Shown: positions 790 through 27,214 of the stretch, in pieces
Layout of the letters: each line of letters begins with the position of its first letter
Position numbering within the stretch: the first letter of the stretch is position 1
Assembly (NCBI GenBank): GCA_036273515.1
Contig: DASUHM010000073.1
Coordinates: forward strand, 1 to 41,801
Reading direction: 5' to 3'
Length of the DNA stretch: 41,801 nt
From: Gaiellales bacterium
GTDB lineage: Bacteria; Actinomycetota; Thermoleophilia; Gaiellales; JAICJC01
The notes under the pieces: generated by a model
Seen by the model: only the letters and a program-made list of their open reading frames with translations
What the model was told of the DNA's origin: nothing
Database searches by the model: none
Program-made: the position numbers and the translations under genes

Positions 790-2160
790 TCACGGATGCA
801 TGCGCCGGGCCGCGGCAACCGCCGGCGCCCGGTGCAGGACGGTAGCCACGATTACCACGTCGACGGGAAGGTCTGCCGGCGCCTCGGGCTCGGCGACCGG
901 CGCGTCGCGCTCGACGTCGCGCATGCCCGGCAGGAACAGCGCGGCGAAGGTGATCACGGCCCCGCCGACGCCCGCGCCGACGAGGGTCATCCGCGCGCCG
1001 ATCATCTCGGTGACGGGCGCGGTGAGCGCGAAGGAGAGCGGCAGGAGGCCGATCGAGATCAGCCAGTCGAGGCTCGAGACCCGGCCCAGCATCGAGGCGG
1101 GCACGTGGCGCTGCTTGAGCGTCGCCCACACGATCGTCCCGGCGGTCTCGAGCGCGTTGAAGAGCAGGCAGGCGACCACCAGCTGCCAGGTCGCGGTGGC
1201 GAGGCCGTAGCCGGCGACGGCGAGGGTCGCCAGCGTCCAGACGACGTAGATGAAGGTCACGTGGCGGCGGGGCTGGTCGCGCTGGCCCATGAGGACGGCC
1301 GCGCCGATCGAGCCGATGCCGCCGGCGGCGAACACCGCTCCGAGCATCCCGGCCGAGCCGTGCAGGCCGTTCTTGACGACGTACGGCAGGAGCACCTCGG
1401 TCGGGCCCAGGAAGAGCAGGTAGGCGAACGCCGCGGAGACGAGCGTCCCCCAGATCCAGGTGCGGCCGCGGATGAAGCGCAGGCCGCCGCGGATGTCGGC
1501 CATGACCGAGAGCCCCTCGGGCACATGCCGCGGCAACGGCCGCATCGCCAGCACCGCGGCGCCGGCGGCGGCGAACGACGCCGCGTCGGCCGCGAACGCG
1601 ATCCCGGGCCCGAAGGCGGCGATCAGCCAGCCGCCGACGGCCGGGCCGGCCAGGCGGAGGGCGATCGGGCGGACGAACTGGTCGAGCGAGTTGGCGGCAG
1701 GGAGGTCGGACGCGGGCAGGATGTCCGGCACGAGCGCCTCGAACGCCGGCGTGAAGAACGCGGTGCCGGCGCCGTAGACCATCGCCAGCACGGCGATCTC
1801 CCAGATCTCGACCCGACCGGTGATCGAGAGCCCGGCCAGGACCGCGATCGCGAGGGCCCGCACCGCGTCGGCGGCGAGCATGATCCCGCGGCGGCTGAGC
1901 CGGTCGCTGACGACGCCGCCTGGCAGCAGGCAGACGATGGTCGGCACGGTCATCGCGATCCCGACCATCGAGAGCGCGGCCGGCGCGTTCCAGACCGCGT
2001 ACACCTGCCAGGCCATCGCGACCAGAAAGATGCCGTCGCCGAGCAGCGACACCGTCATCCCCGACCACAGCAGCCGGAAGTCGCGGTGCCGCAGCGGCGC
2101 GAGCAGGTTCAGCCGGGTGAACCCGCCGGGGCGGTCGAGCGCGTCGTAACTATGCTGCAT
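790..2160 (-). CDS. MFS transporter, EntS-like exporter type
   Basis: A 456-residue integral membrane protein with about 12 predicted helices. It begins with a polar stretch and the sequence FRLLWSGMTVSLLGDGIFLVAMAW, typical of the MFS_3 group that contains the enterobactin exporter EntS and macrolide-efflux proteins. The loop after helix 2 (GGVVSDRLSRRGIML) matches the MFS signature between helices 2 and 3. The C-terminal 40 residues (after PGMRDVERD) are hydrophilic and probably cytosolic. The ATG at 2160 overlaps the end of the GGDEF/EAL gene by 11 bp, so translation is likely coupled. The substrate cannot be read from sequence. Its position in an operon with an oxoamine synthase makes export of that enzyme's product a reasonable guess. 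Confidence 0.88.
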   Translation of the reverse strand: MQHSYDALDRPGGFTRLNLLAPLRHRDFRLLWSGMTVSLLGDGIFLVAMAWQVYAVWNAPAALSMVGIAMTVPTIVCLLPGGVVSDRLSRRGIMLAADAVRALAIAVLAGLSITGRVEIWEIAVLAMVYGAGTAFFTPAFEALVPDILPASDLPAANSLDQFVRPIALRLAGPAVGGWLIAAFGPGIAFAADAASFAAAGAAVLAMRPLPRHVPEGLSVMADIRGGLRFIRGRTWIWGTLVSAAFAYLLFLGPTEVLLPYVVKNGLHGSAGMLGAVFAAGGIGSIGAAVLMGQRDQPRRHVTFIYVVWTLATLAVAGYGLATATWQLVVACLLFNALETAGTIVWATLKQRHVPASMLGRVSSLDWLISIGLLPLSFALTAPVTEMIGARMTLVGAGVGGAVITFAALFLPGMRDVERDAPVAEPEAPADLPVDVVIVATVLHRAPAVAAARRMHP

Positions 2161-5100
2161 CGGCCTGAGCCTCTGGCCCGGCCGAGTCGTACACGCTGTC
2201 CAGGTAGCGCATCAGGTCGGGCGAGCTCATGGCCTTGGCGAACAGGAAGCCCTGCCCGAGCCCGCACCCGAGGTCGCGCAGCACGGTTGCCTGGTTGGCC
2301 AGCTCGATGCCCTCGGCGACGACCTCGAGGTCGAGCGTCTCGCCGATCTTGACGATCGCCTGCGGCAGCGCCGAGACCGCCTCGCCCGAGGTGAGGAACG
2401 AGCGATCCATCTTGAGGATGTCGACCGGCAGCTTGTTCAGGTAGCTGAGCGACGAGTAGCCGGTGCCGAAGTCGTCCATCGCCACCTTCACCCCGAGCGC
2501 CTTGAGCGCGTTCAGCCGCTCGACGGCCAGATCCATGTCGACCATGAGGACGGACTCGGTGATCTCGAGCACGAGGCTCGCCGGCTTCATCCCCGAGGTC
2601 GCGAGCGCATCGCGGACGTCATCGACGATCGTCTCGGACTGGAGCTGCTTCGCCGACAGGTTGACGCTGATCGAGAGCGGCGACTCGCTGCCGAACCGTT
2701 CGGTCAGCAGCGCTCCCTGGGTGCAGGCCTGGTTGAGCGTCCAGCGGCCGATCGGAATGATCAGGCCGGTGTCCTCGGCGACCGGGATGAACTGCGTCGG
2801 CGGGATGTTCCCGCGCGTCGGGTGATGCCAGCGCAGCAGGGCCTCGAAGCCGTAGACGGTGGTGCCGGAGAGGCGGATCACGGGCTGGTAGTGCACCTCG
2901 AGCTGGCCCGTCTCGATCGCGCGCTGCAGGTCGGCGCGCATCTCGAGCCGCTCGACCACCTCGCGGTGCATGTCGGGCTCGAAGACGCGGTAGCCGCCCT
3001 TGCTCTCGCGCTTGGCCATGTACATGGCGACGTCGGCGTTGCGCAGCAGGTCGGCCGCGTCGGCGGTGCCGTCGCTCGTCAGGCAGAGTCCGATGCTGGC
3101 GGCGACGACGAGCTCCTTCTCGCCCATGTCGATCGGCTCGGCCAGGCCCTCGAGCACCCGCTCGGCGACATCGACGGCCTCCTGCGAGCGCTGCACCTCC
3201 TCGACCAGGACGGCGAACTCGTCGCCGCCGAAGCGGGCGACCGTATCGGTCGGGCGGACCGCGGCGCGCAGCCGGTGGGCGACCTCCTGCAGCACCGCGT
3301 CGCCGGACGCGTGGCCGAGGCTGTCGTTGATCGTCTTGAAGTCGTCGAGGTCGATGAAGATCACGCCGACCGTCGACTCCTCGCGGGATGCGCGGGCAAG
3401 CGCGTGGCCGACGCGGTCGGCGAAGAGGGCGCGGTTGGCGAGCCCGGTGACGGGGTCGTGGAAAGCCTGGTGGGCGAGCTGGTCCTCGTAGAGCTTGCGC
3501 TCGCTGATGTCGCGGCAGTTGAGGACGATGCCCTGCACGGACTCCTCGGCCAGCAGGTTTCGGTGGTGCACCTCGAACTGGAGCCACTCGCCGGTGCGGC
3601 TGCGCAGGCTGCACTCGATCATGCCGGAGGTGCCGACGCCGGCGTCGGCGCTCTCGACCACCTGCAGGAGGCGGGTGCGGTCGCTCGGGCGCACGAGCAG
3701 GTCGAAGTGGGTGTTCACGACGTCCTCGACCGCGTAGCCGAGCACCTCTTCGATCGCCGGGCTCTGGTAGAGGATCGTGCCGCTGCGGTCGAGCACGGCG
3801 ATCAGGTCGCTGGAGTGCTCGAGCAGGGCGCGGAAGCGGGCCTCGCTGCGGCGCCGGTGGAGGTCCTCGGCCAGGAGCGCACCGTCGATGGCGAGCGACA
3901 TCTGGGTGGACAGCGTCTCGAGCGCGCCGCTCATCTCGCTGCCGTGGCCGCCGGGGATGCCGACGAGCAGGAAGGCGCTGCCGGCGGCGCGGCCGGCCAG
4001 GCCGATCAGGGCGTAGTGCGACTCGCGGGCCAGCTCGAGCTCGCCGAGCAGCTCGCCGGGCACGTCGATCCAGCGCACCGGCGGACCGTCGCCGGAGGCG
4101 GCGGCGAGCCACTCGCGCACGGTCGGCGAGACGGCGTCCTCGGACGGATCCTCGTGCAGGGTGATGAGGCGCGCGTCCGCGGCGGCGCCGGCCAGCTCGC
4201 GCACGGCGGCCTTGGCGGCGTTCTCCATCTGGTCGATGTCCGCGGCGCCGACGAGCGCGACGCCCGCGCGGCGCAGGGCGCGCTGGCGTGCGACCGCGCG
4301 CTCCTCCTGGCGCACCAGGCCCGACATGCGGGCGAGCACGAACATGAACATGACCATCGAGGCCACGATCACGACGATCACGTCGGTGTTGCCCCACTCC
4401 TGGAAGAAGCGGATGCCCGGCGCGATCAGGACGGCGACGCACAGGAACCCGAGGCGCACGGGCGTGAGCCGGGTGCGGCCCTCGGCGGGCTGCTCCAGCG
4501 TGCGCATCGACGGGTGCAGCGCGGCGGCGCCCCAGAGCAGGTAGTAGAAGATCCAGCCCACGTCGAGGATCACCTGGCCGTTGTAGGTGCCGTCGAGGAG
4601 CATGCGGTTGTAGACCGAGTCGGTCGTGAGCAGGCAGACGATGCTGCCGGCGAGCAGGTAGAACGCCGGGGCGCGCACGCCGCGGTCGACCGCGAGCCGG
4701 ATCGCCGCCGCGAGCAGGAGGATGTCGCCGACCGGGTAGGCGATCGACACGGCCTCGGGCAGCCAGTTGCCGCCGAGCTGGATGTTCGGGGCGATCAGGA
4801 ACACCCATGACAGCAGGGCGATGCCGAGGGTCAGGATGAGCGAGTCGATGGCGCCGGCCCGGTCGGTGCGCGGGTTGCGCCGCCGCACGAGCAGGAGCAG
4901 GCCGGCCATCAGCGCCGGGTAGACGGTCAGGTAGAGCGCGTCGCCGGGCGAGGGGAACCCGACGTTCAGGCCGAACAGGCTCGGCAGGCTGTACGTGTAG
5001 AAGTCGCCGACCAGGAACAGGGCCTGGCCGAGGGCGAGAAAGCCCCACGCCACGAGCGCCTTCGGCCGGTGCATGCGCATGCCGGCGAGGATGGCGGCGA

Positions 5101-5278
5101 CGCCCGAGAAGCCGAGCGCGTTGATGAACGGCCCGTGGATGGCACTGCCGCGCTGGAAGACGGGCACGACCGCGTAGAGGTACGTGAAGAGCGAGCCGGC
5201 CAGCAGGTACCACAGCCAGACGGTGCGCGGCGAGAGCGGCCACAGGCCCGAGCGGAGGGACCGGGTCAGGCGGGTCAT
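2150..5278 (-). CDS. Membrane GAF-PAS-GGDEF-EAL protein (cyclic-di-GMP turnover)
   Basis: A 1042-residue protein. Residues 1-330 hold about nine to ten hydrophobic helices forming a membrane sensor domain that I cannot name. About 345-500 is a GAF-like region, about 505-625 a PAS domain (FRALLEHSSDLIAVLDRSG) with its PAC end (NCRDISERK). The diguanylate cyclase domain carries an intact GGDEF at 684-688 and an inhibitory I-site RPTD at 675-678, exactly five residues before it. The phosphodiesterase domain carries EAL at 812-814 followed by LRW, then SVNLS, ITES, DDFGTGYSSL, a lysine in ILKMD and VAEGIE, so the metal and catalytic residues look complete. Both activities are therefore possible; which dominates cannot be told. 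The ATG at 5278 overlaps the TGA of the upstream oxoamine synthase (ATGA), and the MFS gene overlaps its end. Confidence 0.93.
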   Translation of the reverse strand: MTRLTRSLRSGLWPLSPRTVWLWYLLAGSLFTYLYAVVPVFQRGSAIHGPFINALGFSGVAAILAGMRMHRPKALVAWGFLALGQALFLVGDFYTYSLPSLFGLNVGFPSPGDALYLTVYPALMAGLLLLVRRRNPRTDRAGAIDSLILTLGIALLSWVFLIAPNIQLGGNWLPEAVSIAYPVGDILLLAAAIRLAVDRGVRAPAFYLLAGSIVCLLTTDSVYNRMLLDGTYNGQVILDVGWIFYYLLWGAAALHPSMRTLEQPAEGRTRLTPVRLGFLCVAVLIAPGIRFFQEWGNTDVIVVIVASMVMFMFVLARMSGLVRQEERAVARQRALRRAGVALVGAADIDQMENAAKAAVRELAGAAADARLITLHEDPSEDAVSPTVREWLAAASGDGPPVRWIDVPGELLGELELARESHYALIGLAGRAAGSAFLLVGIPGGHGSEMSGALETLSTQMSLAIDGALLAEDLHRRRSEARFRALLEHSSDLIAVLDRSGTILYQSPAIEEVLGYAVEDVVNTHFDLLVRPSDRTRLLQVVESADAGVGTSGMIECSLRSRTGEWLQFEVHHRNLLAEESVQGIVLNCRDISERKLYEDQLAHQAFHDPVTGLANRALFADRVGHALARASREESTVGVIFIDLDDFKTINDSLGHASGDAVLQEVAHRLRAAVRPTDTVARFGGDEFAVLVEEVQRSQEAVDVAERVLEGLAEPIDMGEKELVVAASIGLCLTSDGTADAADLLRNADVAMYMAKRESKGGYRVFEPDMHREVVERLEMRADLQRAIETGQLEVHYQPVIRLSGTTVYGFEALLRWHHPTRGNIPPTQFIPVAEDTGLIIPIGRWTLNQACTQGALLTERFGSESPLSISVNLSAKQLQSETIVDDVRDALATSGMKPASLVLEITESVLMVDMDLAVERLNALKALGVKVAMDDFGTGYSSLSYLNKLPVDILKMDRSFLTSGEAVSALPQAIVKIGETLDLEVVAEGIELANQATVLRDLGCGLGQGFLFAKAMSSPDLMRYLDSVYDSAGPEAQADAA

Positions 5279-6597
5279 GCGGCCTCCCGCAGCTCGTCGG
5301 GGCGCTGCATCTCGAAGCGCCGGGCCAGCCGGTCGAGGACGTCGATCAGCTCGTCGATCTCGTCGTCGCCGTTGGCCGCGGTGACCTGGATGCGGAACCC
5401 GACCTCGTCCTTGGGGACGAGTGGGTAGGCGGCCAGGGTGACGTAGATGCCGTTGTCGAACAGGAAGCGCCCGACCGAGCCGATGTCGCGGTGATCCGAG
5501 AGCGGGATCTCGATGATCGGGAAGCCGGAGTGGTTGAGCGTGCGCACGCCGATCCGGCGCAGGGCGTCGAGGACGCGGCCCGTCCGCTCGAAGAGGACGC
5601 GGCGCAGCTCGTCGCCGCGGCGCGCGTTCACGTCGAACCCGGCGAGGGTGGTCGCGAGCGAGGCCACCGGCGGCGGCCCGGAGTAGAGGTACGGGGGCGC
5701 GGCCGTCTTCAGCATCTCCTTGAGCGGCGTCGGGCAGGCGATGAACGCGGCCAGCGACGAGTAGGCCTTGGAGAAGCCGCCGACCAGGATGAGCCCCTCG
5801 TAGGTCTCGTCCAGGTGGCGGACGATGCTGTTGCCGCGCGAGCCGTACGGGGAGAGCTCGGAGGCCGAGCGCTCGCCGATCACGCCGAAGCCGTGGGCGT
5901 CGTCGACGTAGAGCAGCGCGCCGTGGCGGCGGGTGACGCGGGCGAACGCGGCCAGGTCGGGGGCGTTGCCGGTGATGCTGTTCACGCCGTCCATGCACAC
6001 GAGCTTCTGGTCGGAGCGATCCTCGATCAGCAGCCGCTCGAGATCGTCGGGATCCTCGAAGCGGAAGCGCTTCAGGGTGGCGCCGCGGGCGACGGCGAAC
6101 TGGCAGCCGTCGTAGATCGTCTTGTGCGCCCGGCTGTCCATGAACACCGTCCCGCCGGCGGCGAGCACCGGGATCACCGCCATGTGGATGTGGGTGATCG
6201 TCGGCAGGACGAGGGTGTCCTCGCAGCCGAGCAGCTCGGTCAGGTGCTCCTCGATCTCGCCGAACAGCGTCGGGCTGCCGAGCAGCCGCGACCAGCTCGG
6301 GTGGGTGCCCCAGCGCTCGACCTGAGCCGGGATCGACTCCATGATCTCGCGGTCGAGGTCGAACCCGAGGTAGTTGCACGACGCGAAGTCGGCCAGCCAC
6401 TGGTCGCCGACCCGGATCCGGCGCCCGTCGATCTCGTCGATCACGGCGTCGGTCATCGGGTTCGAGCGCTTCAGCTCGTCGAGGTCGGCGCAGGCGGCCA
6501 GCCAGCGGTCAATCCACTTGACCTGGTCACTGGAGCGCCTGCGCTCGGGCATGCTGCGACGATCGGGGTTCACAGGCGGGGTATCGGCCGTGGGCAC
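5275..6597 (-). CDS. Alpha-oxoamine synthase family PLP enzyme (AONS/KBL/CqsA-like)
   Basis: A 440-residue fold-type I PLP enzyme of the family that condenses an amino acid with an acyl-CoA (8-amino-7-oxononanoate synthase, 2-amino-3-ketobutyrate ligase, serine palmitoyltransferase, CqsA). Visible marks are CNYLGF near residue 75, a histidine-rich stretch THIHM where the cofactor ring stacks, DDAHGFGVIG holding the aspartate that pairs with the PLP nitrogen, and GGFSKAYSS with the probable Schiff-base lysine K277. It is longer than the usual 390-400 residues because of a polar N-terminal extension. The GTG at 6597 is used here; an ATG at 6552 is an alternative and neither has a clear ribosome site. 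No biotin, threonine-catabolism or sphingolipid genes are nearby. Its coupling to a cyclic-di-GMP enzyme and an exporter suggests a signal or lipid product, which is inference. Confidence 0.85.
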   Translation of the reverse strand: MPTADTPPVNPDRRSMPERRRSSDQVKWIDRWLAACADLDELKRSNPMTDAVIDEIDGRRIRVGDQWLADFASCNYLGFDLDREIMESIPAQVERWGTHPSWSRLLGSPTLFGEIEEHLTELLGCEDTLVLPTITHIHMAVIPVLAAGGTVFMDSRAHKTIYDGCQFAVARGATLKRFRFEDPDDLERLLIEDRSDQKLVCMDGVNSITGNAPDLAAFARVTRRHGALLYVDDAHGFGVIGERSASELSPYGSRGNSIVRHLDETYEGLILVGGFSKAYSSLAAFIACPTPLKEMLKTAAPPYLYSGPPPVASLATTLAGFDVNARRGDELRRVLFERTGRVLDALRRIGVRTLNHSGFPIIEIPLSDHRDIGSVGRFLFDNGIYVTLAAYPLVPKDEVGFRIQVTAANGDDEIDELIDVLDRLARRFEMQRPDELREAA

Positions 6598-6715
6598 GAG
6601 TTCTTGAGCGGGGAGGCGAGGGGTCGGCAGGCACGACGGAGGCGGTGTTTTGCCTGCAGTTCCTGCATCGGCGGAAATGGGGCCGGGATCGTCCCCCGTT
6701 CGAGGGACGACCGAC

Positions 6716-6721
6716 TACGGT
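6716..6721 (+). promoter_or_regulatory. Candidate -10 element of a leaderless gene
   Basis: TACGGT lies 8 nt before the GTG at 6730, the spacing expected if transcription starts at the start codon. No Shine-Dalgarno sequence is seen. The 132-bp divergent gap 6598-6729 holds nothing else I can name. Confidence 0.35.
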
Positions 6722-6729
6722 TCCGGCTC

Positions 6730-7518
6730 GTGGCTGAGCGACGCGCGATCCGGGTCGGCGTGCAGGTGCAACCCCAGCATGGGACGGCATCGGACATGCG
6801 CGACACGTGGCTGCGGGCCGAGGAGCTCGGCGCCGACACGGTGTTCACGTGGGACCACTTCCATCCGCTCTCGGGCGACCCCGACGGCAACCACTTCGAG
6901 TGCTGGACGTGGCTCGGTGCGATGGCCGAGGCGACCGAGCGGGTCGAGATCGGCGCGCTCGTCTCGTGCAACAGCTACCGCAACCCCGAGCTCCTGACCG
7001 ACATGGCGCGGACGGTCGACCACATCTCCGGCGGCCGGCTGATCCTGGGCATCGGGTCGGGCTGGTTCGAGCGCGACTACGACGAGTTCGGCTACGAGTT
7101 CGGGACGGCGCCGTCGCGCCTGCGCGACCTGGACGCGGCCATGCCCCGGATCCACTCGCGCATGGCGAAGCTCGTCCCCCCGCCGGTGCGAAACCCGATG
7201 CCGATCATGATCGGCGGCAGCGGCGAGCGCGTCACCCTGCGCATCGTCGCCCAGCACGCCGACATCTGGAACGGCTTCGGCGACCCGGAGCGGGCGAAGC
7301 AGAAGTGCGACATCCTCGACGACTGGTGCCGCAAGGTCGGCCGCGACCCGGCCGAGATCGAGCGCTCGATCGGCGGCATCCGCGCGAACGCCCTGCCCTA
7401 CCTCGACGGCTATCTCGACGTCGGCGTGACCCACCTCATCATGGGCATCAGCGGCCCGGAGTGGGATCTCAGCCTGCTGCCGAAGCTGGTCGAATGGCGA
7501 GATTCTCGCCAGGGCTGA
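6730..7518 (+). CDS. LLM-class F420-dependent oxidoreductase
   Basis: A 262-residue luciferase-like TIM-barrel protein. It starts at GTG 6730 (VAERRAIRVGVQVQPQ), where the first barrel strand begins. The family marks are WDHFHPL near residue 41, SCNSYRNPELLTDMARTVD, then HISGGRLILGIGSGW and, later, PIMIGGSGERVTLRI, which bind the deazaflavin and phosphate. The frame upstream of 6730 is open but not protein-like. Members of this group use reduced or oxidised F420, not FMN, and the cofD/E/C genes 1 kb away support that. The substrate is unknown. Its 3' end overlaps the convergent EamA gene by 50 bp. Confidence 0.88.
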   Translation: MAERRAIRVGVQVQPQHGTASDMRDTWLRAEELGADTVFTWDHFHPLSGDPDGNHFECWTWLGAMAEATERVEIGALVSCNSYRNPELLTDMARTVDHISGGRLILGIGSGWFERDYDEFGYEFGTAPSRLRDLDAAMPRIHSRMAKLVPPPVRNPMPIMIGGSGERVTLRIVAQHADIWNGFGDPERAKQKCDILDDWCRKVGRDPAEIERSIGGIRANALPYLDGYLDVGVTHLIMGISGPEWDLSLLPKLVEWRDSRQG

Positions 7519-8446
7519 CGGGCAGCTCGACCGGCAGGCGGTGCAGGAGGGCGATGGTGGCCCAGAGGATGGCGAAGCCGGCCACCTGGGTCGCGCTGAC
7601 CGTCGCGTCGAGCGCGAAGTAGTTCACGACGAGCGCCGTCGCCGGGAAGGCCAGCTCGGCGAACGTCGCGACCGACGCCGGCGTCTGGACGAGGCCACGG
7701 TAGTAGAGCATGAGGGCGAAGAGGCCGGGGACGAGCGCGAGCCCGACGAGCCGCGTCCAGTCGGACGCATCCGCCGAGGCGGGCGGCGCGACGACGCCCT
7801 CGTAGAGCGCGATCACGAGGAGCAGCGGCAGCGCGAGGGTGAACCGGGTCGCGGTCACGAGCTGCGGCTCGAGGCAGACGAGCGTCCGCCGCCCGAACGC
7901 CGTCGCGGCGCCCCACAGTGCGGCCGCCAGGAGGGCGAGCAGCGCCGCCCGCCCCTCCGCGCCCGTGAAGGCGTCGCGCGGCGACATCGTGCCGAACGAG
8001 AGCAGGTAGGTGCCGAGGAGCGCCGGGGCCAGGAACCAGCCCAGCTGGCGCAGCGGCCGCTCCCGCATCACCACCGCGGCGGCGGCGATCGCCCACAGCG
8101 GCTGGGTCTTCTGCAGGAGCACGACCACGTCGGGGTTGCCGTACTCGAAGGCGGTCGTGAACGCCAGCGTCGCCAGCGCCGACCCGCCCCACGCCACCCC
8201 GAACGCCGCCAGCCACCCGCCCCGGTCGAGCCGGCGCAGGCCGTGGCGGTGCCGGATCAGGAACGGCAGCACGATCGCGGTCAGGATCACGTGCTCGTAG
8301 AGCACGATCGTGTACGGCGACCAGCGCGCGACCGGCGACACGAGCGGCTGGCGGAAGGCGCCGTCGGTGCCCCAGAGCGCAGCGCCGATCGCGACGAGCG
8401 CCACGCTCGCCACGGGTGCGGTGAAGATCGCTCGCCTGCTGTTCAC
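7469..8446 (-). CDS. EamA/DMT-superfamily permease
   Basis: A 325-residue membrane protein with about ten hydrophobic helices arranged as two EamA repeats. The first repeat starts at VALVAIGAALWGTDGAF and the second at LLALLAAALWGAATAFGRR; both carry the W-G pattern usual in this family. The GTG at 8446 (VNSRRAIF) is chosen because residues before it in the open frame are proline- and arginine-rich and not membrane-like. DMT permeases export amino acids, purines or other small metabolites. The substrate here is unknown. The gene is transcribed toward the LLM gene and shares 50 bp of antisense coding sequence with it. It sits between F420 genes but has no obvious part in that pathway. Confidence 0.85.
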   Translation of the reverse strand: MNSRRAIFTAPVASVALVAIGAALWGTDGAFRQPLVSPVARWSPYTIVLYEHVILTAIVLPFLIRHRHGLRRLDRGGWLAAFGVAWGGSALATLAFTTAFEYGNPDVVVLLQKTQPLWAIAAAAVVMRERPLRQLGWFLAPALLGTYLLSFGTMSPRDAFTGAEGRAALLALLAAALWGAATAFGRRTLVCLEPQLVTATRFTLALPLLLVIALYEGVVAPPASADASDWTRLVGLALVPGLFALMLYYRGLVQTPASVATFAELAFPATALVVNYFALDATVSATQVAGFAILWATIALLHRLPVELPVSPGENLAIRPASAAG

Positions 8447-8507
8447 GAGCCCGGGTAACCCCCCATCCGTCGCATCCGGCCCCTCGGAGCGGCCATGATA
8501 TGCGGGC

Positions 8508-9452
8508 ATGCCCGAACGTCGCGTAACGGTGCTCGCCGGGGGTGTCGGCGGCGCGCGGTTCCTCCAGGGCCTCCTGGAAGTCCTGGACCCGGCCGCGGTC
8601 ACGATCGTCGGCAACGTCGGCGACGACCTCGAGCCGTACGGCCTGCACGTCTCGCCCGACCTCGACACCGTGCTCTACACGCTCACGGGCCGGATCGACG
8701 CCGAGAAGGGCTGGGGCGTCCGCGGCGACACGCCGCGCGCGCTCGAGCAGGCGCGCGCGCTGGGCGCAGAGGCGTGGTTCTGGCTGGGCGACCTCGACCT
8801 GGGCCTGCACATGGCCCGCACCGAGATGCTGCGCGCCGGGATGCCGCTCTCCGCCGTCACCGCGCGGCTGGCGGAGGCGATGGGTCTGCGCGCCGCCCTG
8901 CTCCCCTCGACCGACGACCGGCTGCGGACGATGATCACGATCCCCGCCGGCGAGGTCGACTTCCAGACCTACTACGTGCGCCGCGCCCACGCCGATCCGG
9001 TCTCGGCGATCCGATTCGACGGCGCCGACTCCGCGCGGCCGGCACCCGGCGTGCTCGAGGCGATCGCGACCGCCGACGTGGTCGTGATCGCGCCGTCGAA
9101 TCCGTTCATCTCGATCGACCCGATCCTGGCGGTGCCCGGGATCCGCGACGCGGTCGCCGCCCGCCGCGACCGGGTCGTCGCGGTGAGCCCGATCGTCGCG
9201 GGGAAGGCGCTGCGGGGGCCGGCGGCGGGGATGCTCGAGACGCTCGGCCACGAGACGTCCGTCGTCGGCGTCGCCGAGCTCTACCGGTCGCTGGCGGGGA
9301 CGCTCGTGATCGACGAGGAGGACGCCCCTGCCGCCGCCCGGGTCGAGGGCCTCGGCCTGCGCGCGCGGGTAACGGCGACGGTGATGGCGAATCTGGACGC
9401 CAGCCGGGCCCTCGCCGCGCAGACGCTCGCCGCCGGCGGGCTCCCTCCGTGA
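8508..9452 (+). CDS. cofD: 2-phospho-L-lactate (or phosphoenolpyruvate) transferase CofD/FbiA
   Basis: This 314-residue enzyme transfers the lactyl-phosphate or enolpyruvyl-phosphate group from the GDP-activated intermediate to the deazaflavin Fo, giving F420-0 or its dehydro form. The start LAGGVGGARFLQGL is the nucleotide-binding loop. NVGDDLE and HVSPDLDTVLYTL follow, and PSTDDRLRT at about residue 136 and APSNPFISIDPIL at about 204 are family motifs. The length matches FbiA (about 310-330). In actinobacteria the substrate is thought to come from phosphoenolpyruvate. The ATG at 8508 follows a short gap from the divergent permease. Its TGA overlaps the GTG of cofE, so the two are translationally coupled. 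Confidence 0.96.
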   Translation: MPERRVTVLAGGVGGARFLQGLLEVLDPAAVTIVGNVGDDLEPYGLHVSPDLDTVLYTLTGRIDAEKGWGVRGDTPRALEQARALGAEAWFWLGDLDLGLHMARTEMLRAGMPLSAVTARLAEAMGLRAALLPSTDDRLRTMITIPAGEVDFQTYYVRRAHADPVSAIRFDGADSARPAPGVLEAIATADVVVIAPSNPFISIDPILAVPGIRDAVAARRDRVVAVSPIVAGKALRGPAAGMLETLGHETSVVGVAELYRSLAGTLVIDEEDAPAAARVEGLGLRARVTATVMANLDASRALAAQTLAAGGLPP

Positions 9453-10186
9453 CCGAGCGGATCGAGGTGCTTCCGCTCGCCGTCGCCGGCGAGATCGAGG
9501 CGGGCACCGACCTGGCGGAGCTGGTGCTCGCGGCCGCCCCGCCCCTGCGCGACGGCGACGTCGTCGTGGTCGCCCACAAGGCGGTCTCGAAGAGCGAGGG
9601 CCGCGTCGTCGACCTGGCCACGGTGACGCCGTCGGCGCGGGCGCTCGAGCTCTCGCAGGAGGGCGGCGACCCGCGCATGGCCGAGCTCGTGCTGCGCGAG
9701 AGCCGCCGCATCGTCCGCCGCCGCGCGGGCCTCCTGATCGCCGAGACCCACCACGGCTTCGTGTGCGCGAGCGCCGGCATCGACCGCTCGAACGGCCCGG
9801 CCGCCGGCTGGGCGGTGCTGCTTCCGGTCGACCCGGACGCCTCCGCCGCGCGGCTGCGGGCCGGGCTCGAGCGCCGCAGCGGCGCGCGGCTGGCCGTCGT
9901 CGTCGCCGACACGATGGGGAGGGCGCTGCGACGGGGGATCGTCGGCACCGCCATCGGCGCGAGCGGCCTCGACGCGCTTCGCAGCTACGCCGGGACGGTC
10001 GACCCGGCCGGCTACGAGCTGCGGACGACGGCCGTCGCCGTGGCCGACGAGCTGGCCTCGGCCGCCGACCTCGTCCTCGGCAAGCTCGTGCGTGTCCCGG
10101 CGGCGCTGATCCGCGGCTTCGAGGCGCGCGGCGAGGGCAGCGGCCGCGACCTGATCCGCGACCCGGCCGAAGACCTGTTCAGGTGA
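9449..10186 (+). CDS. cofE: F420-0:gamma-glutamyl ligase CofE
   Basis: A 245-residue GTP-dependent ligase that adds glutamates to F420-0. The motifs HKAVSKSEGRVVDL, ESRRIVRRR, ETHHGFVCASAGIDRSN and VVVADTMGRALRRGIVG are those of CofE and of the N-terminal half of mycobacterial FbiB; the histidines and aspartates in them bind metal and GTP. The protein stops at about 245 residues, so the C-terminal nitroreductase-like FMN domain of FbiB, which reduces dehydro-F420-0, is missing. That step must be done by another protein if the phosphoenolpyruvate route is used. The GTG at 9449 overlaps the cofD stop (GTGA). The 3' end overlaps the convergent cofC by 8 bp. Confidence 0.95.
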   Translation: MTERIEVLPLAVAGEIEAGTDLAELVLAAAPPLRDGDVVVVAHKAVSKSEGRVVDLATVTPSARALELSQEGGDPRMAELVLRESRRIVRRRAGLLIAETHHGFVCASAGIDRSNGPAAGWAVLLPVDPDASAARLRAGLERRSGARLAVVVADTMGRALRRGIVGTAIGASGLDALRSYAGTVDPAGYELRTTAVAVADELASAADLVLGKLVRVPAALIRGFEARGEGSGRDLIRDPAEDLFR

Positions 10187-10784
10187 CGCAGGCGCCGGCC
10201 GTGACGAGGCGGCGGACGGCGGCCAGGTCGGCCGGGGTGTCGACGTCGCGGGCGAGCCCCGGCCGGTCGAGCATGACGACGTCGAGCCCGTGGGCACGGG
10301 CGCGGCGGGTGTGGACGGCAGCGCTCCCGGCCGCGCCAAAGGCGGGCACCAGTGCGCCCGCGGGGCACACCCAGAGCGCGTTCGTCCCGCCGTCGTGGGC
10401 GCGGCCGATCACCGCGGTCCGCTCGCCGCCGGCCTCGAGGAGCGCGACGACGTCAGCCGCGTCGACCAGCGGCAGATCGCCCGCCAGGTAGAGCACGGCG
10501 GCCGCGGGCCGCTCCAGCAACGAGCGGGCGTACACCAGGCCCTCGTTCCACGGGAGGCCGCCGTCGGAGACGCACTCGACCCCGAGCCGGCGGGCGAGGC
10601 CGGGCGCCGACGGATCCGAGCTGGCCAGCGCGACCCGGCCCGCGCCGGCGCGCACGGCAGCACGGGCGACCCCGGCGAGCATCCCCGCCATGAGCCGCCC
10701 GCGCTCGTCGTTCGTCAGCGCCGGCGCAAGCCGTGTCTTGGCCGCATCGAGCCGCTTCAGCGGGATGAGGACATCCGTCTCCAC
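10179..10784 (-). CDS. cofC: Phosphoenolpyruvate/2-phospho-L-lactate guanylyltransferase CofC/FbiD
   Basis: A 201-residue nucleotidyltransferase that activates phosphoenolpyruvate or 2-phospholactate with GTP for CofD. It opens with VLIPLKRLDAAKTRLAPAL, the GTP-binding loop of the family, followed by LYLAGDLPLVDAADV, where the aspartates bind metal, and GRAHDGGTNALWV. The length fits FbiD (about 210). The GTG at 10784 has TACCAT five nt upstream on the same strand, a candidate leaderless promoter. The gene is convergent with cofE and its end overlaps it by 8 bp, so the three F420 genes do not form one operon. The Fo synthase (cofG/cofH or fbiC) is not in the window. Confidence 0.94.
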   Translation of the reverse strand: METDVLIPLKRLDAAKTRLAPALTNDERGRLMAGMLAGVARAAVRAGAGRVALASSDPSAPGLARRLGVECVSDGGLPWNEGLVYARSLLERPAAAVLYLAGDLPLVDAADVVALLEAGGERTAVIGRAHDGGTNALWVCPAGALVPAFGAAGSAAVHTRRARAHGLDVVMLDRPGLARDVDTPADLAAVRRLVTAGACVT

Positions 10785-14071: not shown

Positions 14072-16086
14072 ATGGCGAGGGCAGCCAGCGAACTCACCGG
14101 CAGCGCCGTCCCCGACGCCGACGGCAGGCGGCGGGTCGTCGTCGAGAACGTGCGCCCGTGCGTCGACGGCGGCCGCTTCCCCGTGAAGCGGGTGGCCGGC
14201 GACCAGGTCGAGGTGACCGCCGACGTGCTCGCCGACGGCCACGACGTCGTCGCCGCCGTCGTCCGCCACCGCCGCGACGGCGAGCGCCGCTTCCGCGAGG
14301 TGCGCATGCAGCCGCTCGGCAACGACCGCTTCGCCGCGTCGTTCCCGGTCGAGGTGCTCGGCCGCCACGCGTTCGCGGTGCGGGCCTGGATCGACCGCTT
14401 CGCCACCTGGCGCGACCAGCTCGACCGCCGGGTCGAGGCGGGGCAGGACGTGCGGGTCGAGCTGGCGGTCGGCGTGGAGCTCGTCGAGGCGGCGGCCGGA
14501 TCGGCCCCGGCGGCCGCGGCGACCGAGCTTCGCAAGTGGCGCGCCCGCCTGGCCGGCGACGATCCCGAGGCGGCCGCGGCGGCCGCGCTCGACCCGGCCC
14601 TGGCAGACCTGATGGCCGCCCACGACCCGCGCCCGCACGCCACCGACTCCGACCTGGCCGTGCCGGTGTGGGTCGACCGGCCGCTGGCCCGGTTCTCGGC
14701 CTGGTACGAGCTTTTCCCGCGCTCGCTCGGCGGCGGCCGCCACGGCACGCTCCGCGACGTCCGCGACGAGCTCGAGCGCATCGCCGGCATGGGCTTCGAC
14801 GTGCTCTACCTGCCCCCGGTGCACCCGATCGGCGAGACCCACCGCAAGGGCCGCAACAACACGCCCGCCGCCGGGCCGGGCGACGTCGGCAGTCCCTGGG
14901 CGATCGGCGCCGCCGCGGGCGGGCACACCGCCGTCCACCCCGATCTCGGCAGCGTCGCCGACGTCCGCCGGCTGGCCGAGGCGTGCGCGAAGCGCGGCAT
15001 CGCCCTCGCGCTCGACATCGCCTTCCAGTGCTCGCCCGACCACCCCTGGGTCTCCGAGCACCCGGAGTGGTTCCGGCATCGGCCCGACGGCTCGATCCGG
15101 TATGCGGAGAACCCGCCGAAGCGCTACGAGGACATCTACCCGCTCGACTTCGAATCGGAGGACTGGGCCGGGCTGTGGCGGGCCCTCGCCGACGTCGTCC
15201 GCTTCTGGCTGCGCCAGGGCGTCTCCGTCTTCCGGGTCGACAACCCGCACACGAAGCCGTTCGCGTTCTGGGAGTGGATGATCGCCGACGTGACCCGCGA
15301 CCACCCGGAGACGATCTTCCTGGCCGAGGCGTTCACCCGGCCGCGGGTGATGGAGCGGCTGGCCAAGGCCGGGTTCACCCAGTCGTACACCTACTTCGCC
15401 TGGCGCAACGGCAAGCACGAGCTCGAGGGCTACCTGCACGAGCTGACCCAGACGGGCCTGCGCGACTACTTCCGGCCCAACTTCTGGCCGAACACGCCCG
15501 ACATCCTCACCGAGCCGATGCAGACCGGCGGCCGCCCGACGTTCGCCGCGCGGCTCGTGCTGGCAGCGACGCTCTCGCCCAGCTACGGCATCTACGGGCC
15601 GGCGTTCGAGCTCGTGGAGCAGCGTGGCCTCCGGCCGGGGAGCGAGGAGTACCTCGACTCCGAGAAGTACCAGCTGCGCGGCTGGGACACCGCCGGCCCC
15701 GACTCGCTCGAGCCGCTCGTGACGGCGGTGAACGCCGCCCGCCGCGCGCACTCCGCGCTGCAGACGAACGACCGGCTGGAGTTCCGGTACGTCGACAACG
15801 ACATGCTCGTCGCCTACACGAAGCACACGGAGGATCGCGGCGACGTCGTGCTCTGCATCGTCAACCTCGACCCCCACCACACCCAGTCGGGCTGGATCGA
15901 CCTCCCGCTCGAGCACCTCGGCATCGATCCCGACGGCCCCTACCAGGTGCACGACCTGCTCGCCGACGCCACCTACACGTGGCAGGGCGGGCACAACTAC
16001 GTGGAGCTCGACCCGCACCGCTCCTCCGCCCACGTCTTCCACATCCGCCGGCGCCTGCGCACCGAGCACGACTTCGAGTACTACGC

Positions 16087-16090
<4 letters not shown>
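14072..16090 (+). CDS. glgE: Alpha-1,4-glucan:maltose-1-phosphate maltosyltransferase GlgE
   Basis: A 672-residue GH13_3 enzyme that adds maltosyl units from maltose-1-phosphate to the growing end of an alpha-1,4-glucan. The N-terminal 190 residues form the beta-sandwich domain ([21 protein letters not shown]) typical of GlgE, and [10 protein letters not shown] begins the catalytic barrel. [15 protein letters not shown] holds the nucleophile D390, [10 protein letters not shown] the acid E419 and PNTPDILTE the third carboxylate D477. The length matches actinobacterial GlgE (about 660-700). The ATG at 14072 is preferred; an in-frame GTG lies at 14060. Its TGA overlaps the ATG of the next gene, which makes the enzyme's substrate, so the pathway is co-translated. 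Confidence 0.97.
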
Positions 16091-19394
<3,304 letters not shown>

Positions 19395-19398
<4 letters not shown>

Positions 19399-21316
19399 CC
19401 CTCGCCGTCGACCGCGGCGCGCTCGAGGCGCTGGCCGCGGCCGAAGGCGTGCTGCGGTCGTACACCGAGACGACCGGCCGGCGCCGGCGGGCGTCGCCGG
19501 AGGCGCTCGCCGCCGTGCTGCGGGCGCTGGGGCACGACGTGGACCAGTCGGGAGGCGGCGCCGCGGAGGCGCTGCGCGCGGCCGAGGCGGATCGCGCCGG
19601 GCGGCTGGCGGAGCCGGTCGCGGTCGCCTGGGGGCGGGCGCACTGCCGGATCCCGGTGGCGGGCAAGGAGCGGCCGGCCTGGACGCTCGCGCTCGAGCAG
19701 GGCGGCGAGGTGCACGGCCGTGCCGTCGACGGGACGGTCGAGCTGCCGCGGCTCCCGTACGGCTGCCACGTGCTGCACCTGGAGGCCGGGGGCCGGACGC
19801 AGGACGTGACCGTCCTTCAGGCGCCACGCCGGGCACCCGCCGGCCCGGAGCGCTCGTGGGGCCTGTTCGTGCCGGTGTACGCGCTGCCGGGGCCGTTCGG
19901 CCCGGGCGACTTCACCCGGATGCGCATGCTGTCGGAATGGACGGCCGGGCTCGGCGGCGACCTGGTCGGCTCGACCCCGCTGAACGCCGCCTTCCTGGGC
20001 GAGCCGTTCGAGCCGAGCCCGTACCTGCCCGTCAGCCGCCTTCACTGGAACGAGCTCTACGCCGACCCGGCCGCGACGCCCGAGTGGGACGCATCGCCCC
20101 GCGCCCGCGACATGGCCGCCGCCTTCCGCCCGCCGGAGGGCCGGCTGATCGACTACCGCGCGGCGGCCGCCGCCAGGCGGGCCGTGCTCGAGGCGCTCCT
20201 GGCCGACCTGGGCAGCGCCCGGCTCGACGCCTTTGAGCGGTATCTGCACGCCCACCCCGACCTGGCGGCCTACGCCGATTTCCGGGCCCGCTGCGAGCGC
20301 GAGCGGGCCGGCTGGCGCGACTGGAGTCATCCGGCTACCCCGGCGGTTGGCGGCGTTCGCATGTGTCATTCCCAGGTGGGCGAGGCCGCCGCCGCCCGCT
20401 ACCACGCGTACGCCCAGTGGTTGTGCGAGGAGCAGCTTGGCCGCGTCGGCGCGGGCGGCGCGGGCCCCTATCTCGACATGCCGCTCGGCGTGCATCCCGG
20501 CGGCTACGACACCTGGCGGTTCCGCGAGCTCTTCGCCGAGGGCGTCTCCGTCGGCGCCCCGCCGGACGACTTCTTCCAGGGCGGCCAGGACTGGGGTCTG
20601 GCGCCGCTTCACCCCGGGCGGTTGCGCGAGGGCGGGCACGCCTACCCGATCGCGTGCGCGGCGGCCCTGTGCCGGCACGCGGCCGCCGCCCGCATCGACC
20701 ACGTCATGGGCCTTCACCGCATCTTCTGGGTGCCTCACGGCCTGCCGGCGACCGAAGGCGTCTACGTCCGCTACCCGTTCGAGGAGCTCTACGCGGTGCT
20801 CTGCATCGAGGCGGGCCGGCACGGGACGCGGCTCGTCGGCGAGGACATGGGCACCGTCCCCGGCGGCGTCCGCCGCACCATGGCGGCGCACGGCCTGCTG
20901 CGCACCTACGCCGTCCAGTCGGAGCTCGGCGACGGGGCCGATCCGTTCGACCGCGTGCCTTCTGCGGCGATGGTGGGCATGAATACCCACGACATGCCCA
21001 CGTTCGCCGCATTCTGGGAGGCCGACGGCCGCCGTGACGCGCTGCGCGCACGGCTCGAGCGGCGCGGCCACGCCGTCGCCGACGGCCCCGCCGCCCTCGA
21101 CGCGAGCCTGCTCGAGCTGGCCGGCTCGGACGCCCGCGCGCTGCTCGTGAGCCTCGAGGACATGTGGTGGGAGCGCGAGCCCCAGAACGTGCCCGGCACG
21201 ACGACCGAGCATCCGAACTGGCGGCGGCTGGCACGCTACGGCGTGGACGAGCTCGACACCGTTCCCGACCTGGCGCCGCGCCTGCGCCGGATCGCCGACG
21301 CGAGGAGGTCTCCCCG

Positions 21317-21320
<4 letters not shown>
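19395..21320 (+). CDS. malQ: 4-alpha-glucanotransferase MalQ
   Basis: A 641-residue GH77 amylomaltase that moves maltodextrin segments between chains and releases glucose. An N-terminal region of about 145 residues precedes [20 protein letters not shown], which starts the barrel. [17 protein letters not shown] contains nucleophile D435, [10 protein letters not shown] acid E483, and [11 protein letters not shown]533. The [12 protein letters not shown] stretch is also typical. It starts with ATG at 19395 on the stop codon of treS-mak and ends on the start of glgB. In this operon it probably recycles the short chains that GlgX releases and TreY cannot use. Confidence 0.95.
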
Positions 21321-23253
<1,933 letters not shown>

Positions 23254-23257
<4 letters not shown>

Positions 23258-25081
23258 GGCATGCCCGCCCCCGCCTGGGGGCGACACCGGAGGCGGATGG
23301 CAGGGGCACGCGGTTCGCCGTGTGGGCGCCGCATGCCGACCGGGTCGACGCCGTGCTGCTCGACCCGGACGAGGTGGTCGTGCTCGCCCCCGCGGGCGAC
23401 GGGTTCTTGGCCGGAGTCGCCGCGGGCGCCGGCCCGGGCCGGCGCTACCGCTACCGGCTGGACGGCGGCGACGAGCTGCCGGACCCGGCCTCGTCGTTCC
23501 AGCCCGAAGGGGTTGCCGGGCCCTCGGAAGTGGTTGCCCCCTGGGACGGCTGGACCGACGCGGGCTGGCGGGGCGTGCCGCTCGCGGAGCTCGTGCTCTA
23601 CGAGTTGCACGTCGGCACGTTCACGCCGGAGGGCACGTTCGACGCGATCGTGCCGCGGCTGGCCGAGCTGCGCGAGTTGGGGGTGACCGCGATCGAGCTC
23701 ATGCCGGTGGCGCAGTTCCCGGGCGCGCGCAACTGGGGCTACGACGGCGTCTTTCCCTACGCGGTGCAGGACTCCTACGGCGGGCCGGCGGGATTGAGCC
23801 GGCTCGTCGACGCCGCCCACGCGGAGGGGCTGGCCGTGTGCCTCGACTGCGTGTTCAACCACCTCGGCCCGGAGGGCAACGTGCTGACCCGGTTCGGGCC
23901 GGTCTTCACCGAGCGATACCGCACGCCCTGGGGCGCCGCGATCAACATGGACGGCCCGGGCTCGGACGGCGTGCGCGGGTTCCTGATCGGGAGCGCTCTG
24001 CGCTTCATGGAGGAGTTCCATGTCGACGCCCTGCGGCTCGACGCCGTCGACCAGATCGCCGACGCCTCGGCGACCCACTTCCTGGCCGAGCTCGCCGACG
24101 CCGTCGCCGAGGCCTCTGAGCGGGCCGGCCGGCCGCTGCACCTGATCGCAGAGAGCGACCTGAACGACCCGCGCATGATCACGTCGCGAGCCGCCGGCGG
24201 CCTCGGCATGGACGCCCAGTGGAGCGACGACCTGCACCACTCCCTGCACGCACTCGTCACCGGCGAGGGGTCGGGCTACTACGCCGACTTCGCCGGCCGG
24301 GGCACGCGCATGGTCGCGCGCGCCTACCGCGAGGGGTTCGCCTACACCGGCCAGCGGTCACGCCACCGCGGCCGCCGCCACGGGGCCCCGGCGGCGGGCA
24401 TCCACGGCAGCCGGTTCGTCGTCTTCGGCCAGAACCACGACCAGGTCGGAAACCGCATGCTGGGCGACCGGCTGGCGCACACCGCCGGCTTCGAGGCGGC
24501 CAAGCTGATGGCCGGCGCGGTGCTGCTCGCCCCTCAGGTGCCCCTCCTCTTCATGGGCGAGGAGCACGCCGACGACGCGCCCTTCCCGTTCTTCACGAGC
24601 CACTCGGGGGCCGAGCTGATCGAGGCTGTGCGGCGCGGCCGGGCGGAGGAGTTCCGGTCGTTCCGCTGGGCCGGCGAGCCGCCCGATCCCCAGGCCGAGG
24701 AGACGTTCCGAAGCGCCGTCCTCCACTGGGACACGCGCCGCGAGGGCGGCCACGGCCAGATGCTCGATCTCTACCGCGAGCTGCTGCGCCGGCGGCGGGA
24801 GCTCCCGCCGCTGCGCGACCTCGCTCCCGACCGGGTCGAGATCGCGCGGACGGACGACCCCGCGGTCGTATGGCTGCTCCGGGGCGACCCGGCGAGCGAG
24901 ACTGTGCTCGTGTGCCTCCACTTCGGACCCGAGCCGCGCCTCCTCGATGTCCCGTTCACGGGCGAGCGGACGACGCTGATCGACTCCGCCGACGCCCGCT
25001 TCGGCGGGCCGGGCGCCGTGGCGCCCAGCGGCGGCGCGGTCACGGCCCAGCCGCAGTCCTTCCTCGTGCTCGGCGACGCCC

Positions 25082-25089
<8 letters not shown>
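23254..25089 (+). CDS. treZ: Malto-oligosyltrehalose trehalohydrolase TreZ
   Basis: A 611-residue GH13_10 enzyme that cuts trehalose from the end of maltooligosyltrehalose made by TreY. A short CBM48-like domain ([19 protein letters not shown]) is followed by the barrel ([18 protein letters not shown]). Catalytic sites are [12 protein letters not shown] with D263, [12 protein letters not shown] with E300 and [11 protein letters not shown] with D396. The [19 protein letters not shown] motif is characteristic of TreZ. The GTG at 23254 overlaps the glgB stop. treY is not next to it; glgX lies between them, a shuffled version of the common treX-treY-treZ set. Confidence 0.96.

Positions 25090-27210
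<2,121 letters not shown>

Positions 27211-27214
<4 letters not shown>

Follow-up and report, generated by a model that had tools for sequence, protein, structure and literature searches.

An alpha-oxoamine synthase coupled to a membrane cyclic-di-GMP enzyme in Actinomycetota: a candidate signalling module

Quorum sensing by alpha-hydroxyketones (AHK) in Vibrio and Legionella depends on the CqsA/CqsS and LqsA/LqsS systems, in which an alpha-oxoamine synthase (AOS) is encoded beside a receptor with multiple transmembrane (TM) helices (PMC3376566). These are the systems nearest in their working to the locus described here, an operon from a Gaiellales bacterium found in the window, that is, the whole stretch of 41,801 nucleotides that was analysed, which corresponds to the entire contig C73 (DASUHM010000073.1) of a 4.07-Mb actinobacterial assembly (GCA_036273515.1, hereafter G000). 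As in CqsA/CqsS and LqsA/LqsS, an AOS gene is coupled to the gene of a multi-TM sensor, and some relatives of the window locus have a histidine kinase as sensor, once together with a response regulator. However, there are three differences: (i) the sensor in the window is a GGDEF/EAL protein, i.e. a cyclic di-GMP (c-di-GMP) enzyme, rather than a histidine kinase, and this output prevails among relatives too, (ii) the synthase sits in a separate clade and scores far under the cut-off of the CqsA/LqsA family (84.8 versus 428 bits for NF005526) and (iii) an exporter of the major facilitator superfamily (MFS) or an N-methyltransferase-like gene is coupled to the synthase, which may even form one protein with its sensor. 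An earlier note on this DNA had suggested that the operon could make, export and sense a small acylated signal and link it to c-di-GMP, naming CqsA and LqsA among the relatives of the synthase; the coupling of a synthase to a membrane sensor stands, but the synthase is not a member of the CqsA/LqsA family.

The operon and its recurrence in actinobacteria

The AOS, GGDEF/EAL and MFS genes form, in this order, a single operon on the minus strand, in which consecutive reading frames overlap. The AOS (5275-6597) would be 440 aa long if read from the GTG at 6597 and 425 aa from an in-frame ATG at 6552, which is the likelier start. A 4-nt overlap (ATGA, 5278-5275) joins it to the GGDEF/EAL frame (2150-5278), whose 1042-aa product has approximately 10 TM helices followed by GAF-like, PAS, GGDEF and EAL domains, with the N-terminal membrane domain (residues 1-330, encoded by 4289-5278) as candidate receptor. 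An 11-nt overlap (2160-2150) leads in turn to the MFS frame (790-2160), which encodes a 456-aa transporter of the DHA3/MFS_3 type, the candidate exporter. Pfam recognises Aminotran_1_2 in the first product, PAS, GGDEF and EAL in the second and MFS_3 in the third. The coupled three-gene operon of the earlier note is therefore borne out in its coordinates, strand and both overlaps; its description of the middle protein as GAF-PAS-GGDEF-EAL agrees with Pfam for the last three domains, whereas the GAF domain has weak fold matches and no Pfam match.

The coupling of AOS to sensor is real and not a local oddity. Among 80 public loci, the two are fused in 20, adjacent on the same strand in 49 and divergent in one, which makes them adjacent or fused in 70 of the 78 usable loci (two run off the contig end), and the arrangement recurs likewise in an independent sample of the phylum. 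The eight remaining loci include L085, where an EAL reading frame is found directly upstream, and L082, where a kinase encoded two genes away from the AOS carries the sensor domain; the GGDEF/EAL neighbours in L076 and L077 were not counted as linked, because they are encoded on the other strand and do not group with the linked clades in the tree. A search of genomes for the three-gene order, as the note had advised, finds it across Actinomycetota and not in the window genome alone, as AOS-GGDEF/EAL-MFS in Thermoleophilia and as GGDEF/EAL-AOS-MFS in Actinoplanes.

Of the 61 genomes sampled from the order, 12 have a close relative of the AOS (66-74% over the full length, with higher values for fragments from the same genus), whereas the other AOS paralogues there are only 25-30% identical to it. 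Counted at E ≤ 1e-100 in a sample of 396 actinobacterial genomes, the AOS is found in 25 (including two sisters fused to a fatty acyl-AMP ligase, FAAL), and its distribution in Streptomyces is patchy (30 of 199 species, 15%), so that calling the operon "unusual for an actinobacterium" was too strong. In 250 genomes of the order to which Azohydromonas belongs, members of the AOS clade are restricted to Azohydromonas.

A distinct clade of alpha-oxoamine synthases

The AOS was assigned by comparing its NCBIfam profile scores with family cut-offs and by building trees. It belongs to the alpha-oxoamine synthase superfamily by its fold type I, its pyridoxal 5'-phosphate (PLP) lysine and its His/Asp/His/Arg set, and the best fold matches of its AlphaFold2 (AF2) model (mean pLDDT 88) are ThAOS, serine palmitoyltransferase (SPT), glycine C-acetyltransferase (KBL) and BioF. 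SPT, BioF, KBL and 5-aminolevulinate synthase (ALAS) share its fold and catalytic residues, but they are 22-28% identical to it in the fold search, occupy separate branches and can each be rejected as its family, since its scores fall far under the cut-offs for BioF (TIGR00858, 191 versus 426 bits), SPT (180 versus 500), KBL (149 versus 460) and ALAS (102 versus 339). The KBL of this genome is another gene, on contig C92, whose product is 62% identical to that of E. coli.

The trees give the AOS a clade to itself (support 99 in the first, 100/98 in the second), and BioF, KBL, ALAS, SPT and the AHK synthases each form a separate clade, the last of which is monophyletic (100/100). A position inside the BioF or KBL clade, which the note had regarded as fatal to its proposal, is thus not what is found. 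The nearest sisters are the AOS domains of proteins in which FAAL, acyl carrier protein (ACP) and AOS are fused (support 100). At the deeper nodes, an alternative topology in which the AOS clade and these FAAL-ACP-AOS proteins together form the sister group of the AHK synthases is compatible with the data (approximately unbiased test, p 0.41).

The PLP lysine K277 is invariant across 34 diverse sequences, together with H158, D232, H235 and R402 (K265, H159, D231, H234 and R390 in SPT). Two positions are noncanonical, with G274 and A390 replacing Thr262 and Arg378 of SPT, and the GYxAN motif is lost. The invariant catalytic residues, taken together with the G274 and A390 changes, indicate an enzyme that is likely active with substrate contacts unlike those of SPT. 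Judged by its residues, the window AOS represents a distinct, hitherto unnamed and catalytically complete clade, for which activity is predicted.

The FAAL-ACP-AOS sisters (in G257 and G309; 9730-12993 in L237 and 7459-10806 in L236, with a third, truncated copy in L307) differ from the window AOS in carrying their own FAAL and carrier protein. As the FAAL model NF004509 finds nothing in G000 at E ≤ 1e-20, the acyl donor for the window AOS must come from elsewhere. Literature searches found no joint occurrence of "fatty acyl-AMP ligase" with "oxoamine synthase", nor of "GGDEF" with "oxoamine synthase", the coverage of the latter being partial (most subscription journals and preprints lie outside it).

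Sensor, outputs, Streptomyces fusions and neighbouring genes

The AF2 model of residues 1-478 of the GGDEF/EAL protein (mean pLDDT 90.6) shows approximately 10 long helices and then a GAF-like domain. The best fold matches of the domain that follows the TM helices are mostly GAF domains, each of them weak. Solved structures do not provide a fold for the sensor beyond these GAF-type matches, since the membrane part finds no convincing match in the same AF2-model search, and this 10-TM domain has no Pfam model. It belongs to a broad actinobacterial sensor family, present in G000 and in 94 further genomes of the phylum sample, both on GGDEF/EAL proteins and on histidine kinases. Within its TM region, D92, D113, D185, D220 and H255 (numbered as in the window protein) are conserved without, or almost without, exception. 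On the output side, 71 of 73 proteins have a GGDEF motif and the other two GGDEY, the EAL catalytic positions are all retained in 73 of 73, and the RxxD inhibition site is found in the window protein, in about three-quarters of this set and in every fusion. By these motifs, both the GGDEF and the EAL active sites of the window protein are intact.

The same membrane domain also serves a second output. In L238 and L252, the AOS is followed by a sensor-histidine kinase, an MFS gene and a sensor-GGDEF/EAL gene; L074 (also listed as L245) has the same layout, with the membrane domain probably on the histidine kinase. L082 reads sensor-kinase-REC, LuxR-type regulator, MFS and AOS. The FAAL-ACP-AOS sisters adjoin this sensor domain too: in L237, a sensor-GGDEF/EAL gene lies immediately upstream of the fusion gene, and in L236, from the same genus, a divergent gene encodes a sensor-kinase-REC-REC-Hpt protein, the two sensor domains being sisters (100/100). 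In trees, AOS-linked sensor domains split, in parallel with the AOS, into two main clades and group apart from the unlinked ones sampled. AOS members without this sensor still adjoin signalling genes. In Azohydromonas australica, which apparently acquired its AOS from actinobacteria, the gene is flanked on one side by a PAS histidine kinase and on the other by a set encoding a TonB receptor, a YfiR-like protein and a CHASE8 hybrid kinase (L086, 5917-14497); TonB and hybrid kinase genes are near the AOS in a Burkholderiales metagenome-assembled genome, as is an EAL gene in Frankia. Since relatives use this sensor domain to drive a histidine kinase, the conserved role of the AOS partner appears to be sensing, with c-di-GMP as one of two outputs.

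The MFS protein scores 149 bits against a Pfam gathering cut-off of 27 for MFS_3 (PF05977; DHA3-type drug/siderophore exporters), from which an export direction is predicted; EntS and Tet(V) are distant relatives. An MFS gene follows the AOS or the GGDEF/EAL gene in most loci outside Streptomyces.

In the 20 Streptomyces loci with a fusion, a single frame of approximately 1500 aa has the order membrane domain-PAS-GGDEF-EAL-AOS (Pfam having been run on one); the frame as read in L128 excludes the membrane domain, which is encoded upstream of it. In 22 of the 30 Streptomyces species with an AOS, it is part of a frame of at least 1450 aa, a count of frame length alone and not of fusion in each species. 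Searches of S. zaomyceticus, S. gardneri and S. narbonensis return five GGDEF/EAL proteins each. In the first two species, these are two proteins with an intact EAL domain and no TM helices, CdgC (a membrane protein with a degraded EAL domain), RmdB (a short membrane protein encoded approximately 20 kb from CdgC) and the fusion, which is the only 10TM-PAS-GGDEF-EAL protein with an intact EAL domain in the genomes of species near S. venezuelae. Elimination among the five, together with the table of Al-Bassam et al. (PMC6205966), points to the fusion as the orphan c-di-GMP protein CdgF (vnz02140) of S. venezuelae. According to that paper, CdgF is a membrane-bound 10TM-PAS-PAC-GGDEF-EAL protein with all key GGDEF and EAL residues, a layout shared by the fusion, but the domain list given there contains no synthase (PMC6205966). 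A term search of the CdgF papers on S. venezuelae in the library gave no mention of an aminotransferase domain, and a 2026 paper describes the function of CdgF as still to be defined (PMC13232838).

In each of the 20 Streptomyces loci, the fusion gene is followed by a methyltransferase gene (9329-10204 in L104, for example; the matches in L118 and L121 are partial), whose frame shares 4 nt with that of the fusion in L091 and L104; the gene is also present in L249, L114 and L127. Its product is related to SCO2525, scoring below the cut-off of that family, and its profile finds the amine N-methyltransferases NNMT, INMT and PNMT at weak E-values. In two further loci, a reductase of the short-chain dehydrogenase/reductase (SDR) type is encoded between AOS and GGDEF/EAL, on the same strand in L248 and on the other in L240. 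Both the methyltransferase and the SDR reductase would suit an aminoketone product.

Upstream of the window operon, a short intergenic region (6598-6729), presumed to hold the operon promoter, separates it from a divergent gene for a luciferase-like oxidoreductase. A sigma-70-like promoter scan of this region gave no match, which says little for an actinobacterium. The neighbouring genes (6730-10784) are F420-related and encode this luciferase-like (F420-type) oxidoreductase, CofD, F420-0:gamma-glutamyl ligase and CofC, plus an EamA transporter. Further on (14072-29523) lies a GlgE/alpha-amylase-family cluster of the glycogen/trehalose pathway, with GlgE, trehalose synthase/maltokinase-like and branching-enzyme-like genes.

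A signal, a building block or a weapon?

How might such an operon work? We propose that it may be a self-contained signalling module, in which the AOS would join an acyl thioester and an amino acid into an acyl aminoketone by PLP-dependent decarboxylative Claisen chemistry. Family membership and gene coupling suggest that this product would leave the cell through the MFS carrier, and that in Streptomyces it is probably N-methylated before exit. It would then be bound by the 10-TM N-terminal domain of the GGDEF/EAL protein, and binding would shift the balance of c-di-GMP synthesis and breakdown through the GAF-like and PAS domains. In Streptomyces, synthase and sensor/c-di-GMP enzyme are a single protein, CdgF by elimination. 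This model, with a small acylated aminoketone that the AOS produces as a signal and the membrane domain senses in order to set c-di-GMP, has in our view an even chance of being correct. The broader proposal is more tentative, and we hold it to be possible but somewhat short of probable, namely that this is a new class of bacterial signal – an acyl aminoketone from an unnamed AOS clade – read directly by a c-di-GMP enzyme, or by a sister histidine kinase, via a shared 10-TM receptor, with synthase and receptor/second-messenger enzyme united in one Streptomyces polypeptide, CdgF.

Several observations weigh against such a module. The sensor domain is found in 95 of the 396 phylum-sample genomes (E ≤ 1e-25), compared with 25 for the AOS, and 19 of 20 strong matches to it that were not previously known to be AOS-linked have no AOS-like neighbour (the single exception is L307, with a FAAL-AOS). 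An exclusive pairing of sensor domain and AOS is therefore rejected, the sensor family being the broader; what we see is probably a common sensor that has become specialised in AOS-linked loci. The earlier idea of the membrane domain as receptor gains from its occurrence on histidine kinases beside an AOS and loses from these members without one. Conversely, AOS and MFS occur together without an adjacent sensor of this kind in Solirubrobacter soli (L073) and in Acidimicrobiia (L076 and L077). No MFS gene lies beside any of the 20 Streptomyces fusions, nor beside several other loci, so that the exporter foreseen in the note, although of the right type and kept in most loci outside Streptomyces, is not a fixed part of the module. 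The FAAL and ACP fused to the sister AOS would be as much at home in the making of lipids or natural products as in signalling. Finally, deleting cdgF in S. venezuelae is reported to leave development unaffected under the conditions of that study (PMC6205966).

The main rival reverses the coupling: the GGDEF/EAL protein would tether the AOS and gate it, turning it on in particular circumstances, and the output would be a building block for lipids or natural products (sphingoid-like or an N-methylated aminoketone) and not a signal. Local allosteric control of this kind would suit a one-polypeptide fusion, the sisters bring their own acyl-loading FAAL and ACP, the same-strand SDR reductase of L248 recalls sphingoid-base pathways and a methyltransferase is coupled in Streptomyces. 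We nonetheless consider it unlikely, if worth keeping in mind, because a constant membrane domain is combined with either GGDEF/EAL or a histidine kinase as output, which points to sensing rather than to control by c-di-GMP, and because the GGDEF and EAL active sites have not decayed to scaffolds.

Less probable still is a role in defence or competition, in which an amine made and exported by the module would act as an antimetabolite or antibiotic-like compound and the membrane domain would read an unrelated environmental cue to time its production. MFS_3 relatives do export siderophores, tetracycline and macrolides, a sensor so widespread without AOS may have a common ligand, and presence in 15% of Streptomyces species is patchy. 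Yet, apart from the methyltransferase, no biosynthetic, resistance or tailoring genes recur, and AOS-linked sensor domains cluster apart from the unlinked ones sampled. Very improbable, in our opinion, is an AOS that releases no product and acts as a sensor subunit, binding PLP or an amino acid to regulate the c-di-GMP enzyme: physical fusion in Streptomyces and the noncanonical positions (Thr262 to Gly and Arg378 to Ala in SPT numbering, GYxAN lost) would fit, but 34 diverse sequences all retain the complete catalytic set, and conserved coupling to an exporter or methyltransferase is sensible only if there is a product. Lastly, the genes might be neighbours by mere chance, given how common GGDEF/EAL and MFS genes are among actinobacteria. 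The locus survey refutes this reading and leaves it virtually no credit: across several lineages and in two gene orders, AOS and sensor are linked or fused in 70 of the 78 usable loci, and G000 has the membrane domain in a single copy at E ≤ 1e-8.

Development and antibiotic production in Streptomyces are under the control of c-di-GMP, and we know of no signal perceived by any of the membrane c-di-GMP enzymes of this genus. If CdgF does carry its own signal-type synthase, the question of its signal becomes directly testable in a model strain. If the proposed signalling module is real, it would extend AOS-based chemical signalling, as in Vibrio and Legionella, to a soil-bacterial phylum, and would tie it directly to a second messenger.
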